A DNA stretch of 29,078 bases from a virus. Of this stretch, positions 13,611-16,863 are shown one piece after another. Below the pieces are notes generated by a model. That model was given only the letters and a program-made list of their open reading frames with translations. It was not told the origin of the DNA and did no database searches. The stretch is from positions 1-29,078 of the IMG/VR virus record IMGVR_UViG_3300013131_000184; one strand, 5' to 3'. The first letter of the stretch is position 1, and every line of letters begins with the position of its first letter. The position numbers and the translations under genes were made by a program.

Positions 13611-14455
13611 TATGTCCATGAATTTTGTGAAGGCTTAGGCCCATATATAATTTGCGTTACATTATCAATATAATAATCGCCAACTAAACCTAAGTCTGTA
13701 TCAGGCATACCATTTCCTCGTAAAACTTTAGATGGGGCTTCTACAAGATTTTGTATTACAGTTAATTGGTCTTGTATTAAACTGTTAATTTCATCAACTC
13801 GCAAATCTAAATCAACATCAGATACATTAACTCTACTATAAAATTCACTCGGATATATTGCATTAAGTGCAGCGCCATCCGCGGATAAATTACCATTAGG
13901 AGTATCAGTAGAATTAGGTATTACTGAAACTGAATTATTAACATCATTATCATTGCCACAAATACTAGCTAATTTACGTTCAACTTTATTAATTAAATTA
14001 TTTGCCTTATTAATCAGTTTACTAATTATTTTTAATATAATATTAAATACATTAATAACAGCCGTAATACCAGCTATTAAATCTGCGATAGTTTGTAATG
14101 TTTGGTTCTTTGGGCCTTCTGGAACACCTGGGACTGCCGGAATAGCAACTAAAATACCCGCAGTTATATTAGCTATCCTAGTTGCAGTTTGCATTGTATT
14201 TACTACTGGCTGTAAACGTTGTACAATTAGATTTAAATTATCAATTACGCGTTTTAATTTTGCTAATTTTCTCTTTAAATCTATAACCCTAGGATCTGTA
14301 CATTTTACATTTTTACCCAATGATGCTAAACGTTGTGTTATTTGATCAAATATCTTATTGAACTTCGCAATCTGTTTATCTATTACTGGCTTAGTTTGTT
14401 TAATTACAATATTTGGAAGTTTAGATGCTTGATTAAATGGAAATACCGATGACAT
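13610..14455 (-). CDS. Hydrophobic coiled-coil protein with fibre-type C-terminal tag
   Basis: 281 aa. Residues about 20-90 are charged coiled coil (KRKLAKLKRVIDNLNLIVQR and flanks). Two hydrophobic stretches follow, about 91-115 (TRIANITAGILVAIPAVPGV) and 122-150 (IADLIAGITAVINVFNIILK), separated by a Pro/Gly turn, a hairpin reminiscent of membrane-inserting or pore proteins. A second coiled coil and a Cys (SICGN) precede a disordered linker. The C-terminus (GNGMPDTDLGLVGDYYIDN, then IIYGPKP) is the 'GDYYID...IYGPK' tag seen on many phage fibre proteins. ATG overlaps the stop of the OB-fold gene's neighbour (TAATG). Possibly part of the hub or tail tip; function unknown. Confidence 0.75.
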   Translation of the reverse strand: MSSVFPFNQASKLPNIVIKQTKPVIDKQIAKFNKIFDQITQRLASLGKNVKCTDPRVIDLKRKLAKLKRVIDNLNLIVQRLQPVVNTMQTATRIANITAGILVAIPAVPGVPEGPKNQTLQTIADLIAGITAVINVFNIILKIISKLINKANNLINKVERKLASICGNDNDVNNSVSVIPNSTDTPNGNLSADGAALNAIYPSEFYSRVNVSDVDLDLRVDEINSLIQDQLTVIQNLVEAPSKVLRGNGMPDTDLGLVGDYYIDNVTQIIYGPKPSQNSWT

Positions 14456-15432
14456 TAATTTTCTCCTTTGTCTTGACGTATTTTTAAATTATCAATTTTA
14501 TCAATTAATTCTAAATACTTATCAACAAATGTTGTATCAACATTAATCGGCATACCATCTCTGTCTGTCAATCCGCTTATTAACACATTAAAGAATTCCC
14601 AAAATAATTGTTTAACAGATGTACTATGCAATCCATATTCCTTTTCAGAATCTTGTTTATTACCAATTACTAGTATCGGAGAATTTAATTCAATTGCTAA
14701 ATTAGAATCTACTGCAACAACATCAGTTTTTGATTTTAAAATAATTCGATCAGCAACTCCTATGAATTGTGATTTTGAAAATGCTGTGCTAGTATCGTTG
14801 CTATAATTTAATGTATTATGTAATTTTAAATTATTTAAACGTTGTGTGCTAGTTAAATATAATGATGACACATCTTCATTAATATCTTCTACTGCAAATC
14901 CACTTCCAGTTTGTGGTAACTGGGTATTTGATATTATAATAATAGGATCAGTTTGTGTATCACCAGTCCATGGCGATTGTATAGTATAACTATTACTATT
15001 TGAATTTGTACTACCTAACCGTATTGTATTACCAAATCTACCTTCGAATAACACATCGCCTCGATATGGTTGAAGAAATGATACCGGGATTTCCTTAAAC
15101 TCATCATCGGTTTTAAAATCTTTAGATATAATTGGTAATATGTTATTATTAATATTCGACTGTATACCAATTAATGATAAATAATACCATTGATATTTAC
15201 GATTATTAAAACTAGTACTAGACTCATATCCTTGAAACATTAAAACTGATTCTCCTTTTATCGGAATTTGTTTTACATGTATATTGGATGGTTTAACATT
15301 TTCTACAACTTTTTTTGTAACACCGTATTTAATTAATACATTAATAGTAAAATCTTTAGATTCTTGTTTATATGTATTCGGGGAATCTATAACTTCCCCA
15401 ATATAAAAATTAATTTTACTTTGATCAATCAT
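14455..15432 (-). CDS. OB-fold baseplate hub/spike-like protein (gp5-like region)
   Basis: 325 aa. The N-terminal ~150 residues look like an OB-fold: beta strands INFYIGEVIDSP, FTINVLIKYG, IPIKGESVLMFQGY, QWYYLSLIG, then FLQPYRGDVLFEGRFGNTIR and SPWTGDTQTDPIIIISN. The 'G-R-F-G-x-x-I-R-x-G-S ... D-P-I-I-I-I' pattern is what baseplate hub/spike proteins of T4-like marine phages show. A second part is Ser/Thr/Asn-rich (VEDINEDVSSLYLTSTQRL) and the C-terminus is helical. It lies upstream of the gp25 and gp6 genes, as expected for a central baseplate component. There is no lysozyme domain, unlike T4 gp5. The hub assignment is likely but not certain. Confidence 0.7.
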   Translation of the reverse strand: MIDQSKINFYIGEVIDSPNTYKQESKDFTINVLIKYGVTKKVVENVKPSNIHVKQIPIKGESVLMFQGYESSTSFNNRKYQWYYLSLIGIQSNINNNILPIISKDFKTDDEFKEIPVSFLQPYRGDVLFEGRFGNTIRLGSTNSNSNSYTIQSPWTGDTQTDPIIIISNTQLPQTGSGFAVEDINEDVSSLYLTSTQRLNNLKLHNTLNYSNDTSTAFSKSQFIGVADRIILKSKTDVVAVDSNLAIELNSPILVIGNKQDSEKEYGLHSTSVKQLFWEFFNVLISGLTDRDGMPINVDTTFVDKYLELIDKIDNLKIRQDKGEN

Positions 15433-15877: not shown

Positions 15878-15885
15878 ATAAATAT
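15878..15885 (-). promoter_or_regulatory. ATATTTAT element upstream of the coiled-coil gene
   Basis: Coding-strand octamer 18 bases before the ATG, followed by TTAAAGGATT; probable entry point for the baseplate operon downstream of the sigma gene. Confidence 0.5.
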
Positions 15886-16202
15886 TAAAAAGGCAATTTT
15901 ATGAAGTTTTCGCGTTCATATGCTTTAAAATAGTCTTCATAAATTTGTTTCAATGTTTTTACTACTCGAGTTACTGAACTTGTTTGAGATACATCCAATC
16001 CGGTACGTTCTCGAATTAAAATATATAAACGCTTCTTGTTAAAATCTTCAATTATTTCACGATGTTCGAATATATGCAATATAGAATCAGCAACATGTAT
16101 ATCAGTAGAATTAGTAAAAATATAATTTAAATTATCATAACAATAATTTACAAATGCATCCATGAAATACTTTAAAGTTTCTTGCATTTCAACATTATGC
16201 AT
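15885..16202 (-). CDS. Late sigma factor, C-terminal helix-turn-helix segment
   Basis: 105 aa if started at the first ATG after the TAA, but open frame extends 5' to the TAA itself and no ribosome site precedes this ATG. The sequence is helical: TLKYFMDAFVNYCYDNLNYI, ADSILHIFEHREIIEDFNKK, then RLYILIRERTGLDVSQTSSV followed by TRVVKTLKQIYEDYF. The last two blocks form a helix-turn-helix in the position of sigma region 4; T4 gp55 lacks such a domain. Best read as the second half of the interrupted sigma gene rather than an independent protein. Confidence 0.6.
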   Translation of the reverse strand: MHNVEMQETLKYFMDAFVNYCYDNLNYIFTNSTDIHVADSILHIFEHREIIEDFNKKRLYILIRERTGLDVSQTSSVTRVVKTLKQIYEDYFKAYERENFIKLPF

Positions 16203-16301
16203 TTCTGTTATTACATTGCGCTGTTCATCTATATCTAATTCTTGAGTATCTGCTTTAAGTTTTTTATAAGCTTTATCATTCTCACCAATCAGATAGTTAT
16301 A

Positions 16302-16592
16302 TTATGTACGGGTATAATATGAATATGCTTTACCAAAGTTAGGATCAAATTTATTTAAACGTTCTGTTAGAAATGTAACTAAATCGGTCTGTAAATCGGT
16401 AAATGTAGAATCGATATATGTAGGTTTAACTGTATTAATTAAATTTTCAGCCATTTTCATGAATGCTGGATATATGAATCTACGATATATTTTTTCTCGT
16501 AATACAGAGTTATCTGTTTTATTATATGCTAATATTGCATACTCTGTTATCTTAGTAAAGTATATATTACTCTTCTTCTTTTTCCTCGCCAT
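16302..16592 (-). CDS. Late sigma factor, region-2 segment (N-terminal part)
   Basis: 96 aa as it stands. After a very basic start (MARKKKKSN) the residues from about 25 on follow sigma region 2: LREKIYRRFIYPAFMKMAEN for the core-binding helix, TFTDLQTDLVTFLTERLNKF for the 'D-L-x-x-x-x-x-x-x-x-x-x-x-x-K-F-D' helix, and DPNFGKAYSYYTRT for the region that meets the -10 element. It ends abruptly at TAA in the middle of that last helix. The first 26 bases overlap the membrane-protein gene upstream. It would bind host RNA polymerase core and direct late promoters if complete. Confidence 0.7.
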   Translation of the reverse strand: MARKKKKSNIYFTKITEYAILAYNKTDNSVLREKIYRRFIYPAFMKMAENLINTVKPTYIDSTFTDLQTDLVTFLTERLNKFDPNFGKAYSYYTRT

Positions 16593-16863
16593 CGAATGTT
16601 TCTTTTAATTCAGTTATAGTTTGTAACAACATGTTAAATGTAGTGCCAGCTTCATCTTCTGCTTCAAATGCACCTTTATGATCAATTTGTTTCATGGTAT
16701 CATATGCATCTGCAATACGACCATACATATATTCATTAGTTAATTCTAAATCACCAATATATTCTTGAGCATCTGCTAACATACCGGCTAAATAATATGC
16801 ACGATATGATGCATACACTATACCTATAGTTAACAATACTACTACAATACTTAATACTATCAT
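16567..16863 (-). CDS. Small membrane-anchored coiled-coil protein
   Basis: 98 aa starting at ATG (MIVLSIVVVLLTIGIVYASY). A TTG three codons earlier would overlap the stop of the HD gene; the ATG gives the arrangement TAGTATG and is preferred. Residues 1-20 are a single transmembrane helix with few charges, then a cytoplasmic-type coiled coil (MLADAQEYIGDLELTNEYMY) and an acidic tail (DGEEKEEE). No signal peptidase site is seen, so it likely stays as an N-terminal anchor. It is sandwiched between the HD phosphohydrolase and the sigma gene and overlaps the latter by 26 bases. Function unknown; comparable small anchors in phages act in lysis control or superinfection exclusion. Confidence 0.75.
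   Translation of the reverse strand: MIVLSIVVVLLTIGIVYASYRAYYLAGMLADAQEYIGDLELTNEYMYGRIADAYDTMKQIDHKGAFEAEDEAGTTFNMLLQTITELKETFDGEEKEEE

Follow-up and report, generated by a model that had tools for sequence, protein, structure and literature searches.

What does a lone in-frame stop codon represent inside what otherwise reads as a complete phage sigma-factor gene? The window analysed here is an entire virus record of 29,078 bases, probably a fragment of a genome, and it carries the gene on the minus strand at positions 15885..16592, as 235 codons plus a stop, interrupted once and in register with intact relatives. Read from 16592 down to 15885, the frame gives 96 residues, then TAA at 16302-16304 (codon 97; the base at the stop is read from the contig consensus alone), then 138 residues and the terminal TAA. 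The first-pass annotation had noticed two same-frame segments parted only by this codon; its coordinates are right, and the strand, which it left unstated, is minus. It had offered four readings of the stop, namely an error, a defective copy, readthrough or a sigma factor made of two polypeptides, and it is against these that the comparisons below are set.

The interrupted gene and its product

The ATG of the sigma gene sits within the end of a small upstream gene (16567..16863, minus strand), an overlap seen also in the relatives L163 and L166 and in Flavobacterium phage immuto. According to a predicted model of the protein, the N-terminal 96 residues (16305..16592, minus strand) make up most of the sigma-2 domain, while residues 98-235 (15888..16301, minus strand) contain the end of the sigma-2 helix, a linker and a C-terminal helical, sigma-4-like part. 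Residue 97 lies within predicted helix 89-115, the last of the sigma-2 domain, so the earlier placement of the stop inside a region-2 helix was correct. Past the stop, the next in-frame ATG is codon 131 (16200..16202, minus strand), which is also the start of a 105-aa ORF listed separately. The split frame is beyond chance because relatives carry both halves as one uninterrupted frame, collinear with the window. A frameshift in place of a substitution was considered and rejected, as both flanks share one frame with the relatives without any indel.

Fold, together with sequence in some members of the family, supports a reading of the protein as a sigma factor, one that is divergent and unannotated. 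Its predicted model (pLDDT 85.8, pTM 0.47) aligns with SigB (8x6g_H) at Z 10.2 and rmsd 2.5 Å over 90 residues and with sigmaE at Z 9.6 and rmsd 3.0 Å over 100 residues. The best structural matches are nearly all sigma factors and many span both ends of the model; the Foldseek E-values are weak when taken alone (best 0.22). The predicted sigma-2 fold is thus shared with the bacterial sigma-70 family (S. aureus SigB, E. coli sigmaE and sigmaS), from which the protein differs in sequence, with only 6–16% identity in the structural alignments shown. At the sequence level the NCBIfam sigma-70 model TIGR02937 matches 8 of 64 family members (best E 9.3e-7) and Pfam Sigma70_r2 reaches E 0.055, short of the Pfam cut-off. 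Pfam and PHROGs yielded no usable family and no named sigma PHROG, and a sequence-profile search against solved structures returned only weak, irrelevant matches. In the C-terminal half the model has helices from 127 to 227, and alignments to sigmaS, RpoH and others extend to residues 224–232 with a large rmsd, as a different arrangement of the two domains would lead one to expect.

How close is this protein to T4 gp55, to which it had been likened? T4 gp55 consists of a sigma-R2 domain and a C-terminal clamp-binding segment (PMC7892883). Homologues of this late sigma factor occur in cyanophages and in phages of Aeromonas and Vibrio. A profile of nine gp55 proteins is collinear with the region-2 half of the window family (columns 8-117 against 5-119, E 1.3e-4, hhalign probability 53%); T4 gp55 alone scores an hhalign probability of 1.3%. 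T4 gp55 is shorter, at 185 aa against about 235 in the window family, and shows no recognisable match to the C-terminal half, where the window family has a helical domain at the place of sigma region 4 that is not described for T4 gp55 (PMC7892883). Of the gp55-like label, then, the sigma identity stands on fold and TIGR02937, any likeness to gp55 is weak and confined to the region-2 half, and no recognisable likeness extends into the C-terminal half. A late role could at best be inferred from the position beside baseplate genes.

At the very end of the protein (window 15888-15908), the near family terminates in a strongly conserved NF[IV][KN]LPF tail, which is absent in distant members. This tail may be a short recognition peptide for a partner protein, for instance a sliding clamp.

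Codon 97 is a sense codon in all relatives aligned through it

Relatives were collected by two scans, with each half of the protein as a separate query and 80 loci from each. Codon 97 is a sense codon in 155 of the 155 related loci that align through it, encoding Ser in 147, Ala in 5 and Thr in 3; this count excludes the window's own locus and includes some contigs twice, because the two queries often brought back the same contig. A profile scan of wider reach added loci down to 37% identity. Of 79 examined, mostly more distant relatives, 78 align through codon 97, all with Ser, Ala, Thr or Val. The alignment to related phage sigma factors that the first-pass annotation had proposed as a check therefore gives a small residue at the position of the stop throughout, and relatives with the two parts as separate genes, which it had named as the contrary outcome, are absent among the loci compared. 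No internal stop occurs in the sigma homologues (153 distinct homologues, 35,356 aligned codons). Near-family relatives have 231–236 codons, uninterrupted and collinear with the window on either side of the stop, and the isolate homologues in Flavobacterium phage immuto and Microcystis phage Mel-JY01 are likewise intact. No split sigma gene was found in any relative, near or distant, among the loci compared. Judged from these alignments, the ancestral gene was a single frame, and it is whole in the relatives. A single substitution separates the window's TAA from the codon most frequent in relatives, and about 5.8% of single substitutions in the sigma gene would create a stop. A search for the same strain, with a degenerate 29-base pattern allowing either base, found no match in a set of viral contigs that may exclude the window's own record, and nucleotide searches in isolate phages returned nothing.

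Among these relatives, L273-L282 lie on contigs that had been assigned to MAGs of archaea, Gammaproteobacteria and Bacteroidota; those in the archaeal MAGs, if no others, look like misbinned phage contigs.

Both halves of the gene show constraint

In a comparison with L089, the nearest relative (91.5% protein identity), the part before the stop has a dN/dS of 0.054, the part after it 0.069 and the whole gene about 0.065, and pairs of intact relatives give values similar to that of the window–L089 pair. The sigma gene has no second lesion, and the other conserved window genes compared have no internal stops. Such strong purifying selection on both halves implies that the stop is either recent or not real. 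An ancient loss of the second half would have left relaxed constraint or additional lesions and, since neither is seen, the stop is not old.

How common are isolated stops of this kind? Across nine gene families in the relative loci, two internal stops were encountered in roughly 164,000 aligned codons. One of them, in L105 (also in L029), is a lone in-frame stop about 38 residues into a homologue of window 14455-15432, with the frame otherwise intact. The other, in L222, was discarded, being a natural gene end that the alignment had read through. The convincing background is thus one isolated stop per roughly 164,000 aligned codons. With such a low background a stop in any given 29-kb window is uncommon, but the present case was picked for its oddness. 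Isolated stops in these public metagenome contigs are rare but present, as expected from consensus errors or mutants in a minor part of the population.

What the stop codon most probably is

We consider it very probable that the locus is a normal phage sigma gene, coding for a single polypeptide and hit by a lone point nonsense. That nonsense would be a mistake in the sequencing or in the consensus of the metagenome assembly, or else a loss-of-function mutation that arose very recently in the sampled phage or in part of its population; we rank error slightly ahead. The predicted fold suggests that, in working relatives, the intact protein would attach to host RNA polymerase through the sigma-2 domain and guide the enzyme to phage promoters. 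The window copy, read literally, would end translation inside the sigma-2 domain and yield a non-functional fragment, and the stop itself would have no function. Error and defective copy are the two of the earlier options that the comparison favours; readthrough and a two-polypeptide sigma drew no positive support from it.

A stop that is real and tolerated, by programmed readthrough or by the use of two chains, would place a phage transcription factor under a regulatory switch, which we regard as very improbable. For readthrough one could argue that the conserved coding signal runs across the stop and beyond it with the frame kept, as would be needed if full-length sigma came from suppression by a tRNA or from a leaky stop context. 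However, no relative has a stop at codon 97, and TAA had rightly been taken as a true terminator in this code: of the 29 other gene models in the window with a stop, 22 end in TAA and all are free of internal stops. Within some 24 kb of coding sequence the window has a single internal stop and so lacks the pattern of stop recoding, in which stops recur and a suppressor tRNA is present; phage recoding as described concerns TAG and TGA (PMC11210395). ARAGORN was run on the window, on its two nearest contigs and on three larger relatives (93, 97 and 169 kb) and found no suppressor tRNA; one would have to be encoded in the rest of the window's own genome or by the host. The only tRNAs that it found were Trp, two Leu and Glu. 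We therefore hold readthrough to be very improbable. The tRNAs form a four-gene cluster in the 169-kb relative (L252:1301-2265), in which the Leu anticodons are UAA and UAG; these are not suppressors.

A two-chain sigma, in which the 96-aa N-terminal part would join a C-terminal part translated from the internal ATG to form an active factor, seems to us extremely improbable. An in-frame ATG does exist 34 codons past the stop and both halves are constrained, but this level of constraint is what an intact ancestor leaves, and no near or distant relative has a split gene. Moreover, a C-terminal part starting there would be without residues 98-130, which include N99, Y100, L101, N105 and Y109 of the sigma-2 helix, all invariant or nearly so. 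A promoter scan gave matches no commoner than in shuffled sequence, and so offers no argument that the C-terminal part has an internal promoter of its own. Could the gene instead be a long-standing pseudogene or a decayed duplicate? The presence of a stop speaks for such a history, but the lesion is single, dN/dS is low over the whole length, the neighbours are the baseplate and phosphohydrolase genes usual for this gene by synteny, and the record, a 29-kb fragment, contains no other sigma copy of which it could be the duplicate; we find this very improbable too. An isolated nonsense, erroneous or very recent, in an otherwise normal gene accommodates the single lesion, the constraint and the intact relatives.

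A family of phage sigma factors in aquatic phages

Full-length homologues of the protein exist in isolates, namely Flavobacterium phage vB_FspM_immuto gp118 and Microcystis phage Mel-JY01 WWT39502, at 36–37% identity and near baseplate or tail genes. In contrast to the window copy they are uninterrupted, and both are annotated as 'hypothetical protein'. The homologues in isolated phages at L160:6001-6699 (NC_055915) and L161:5968-6738 (PP395634) are so annotated, and the fold and profile evidence suggests that they can be named as sigma factors. A split sigma, if true, would be a new way of controlling phage transcription. The more modest use of the analysis is that a large family of sigma factors of aquatic phages, 'hypothetical' in isolates, can now be named.
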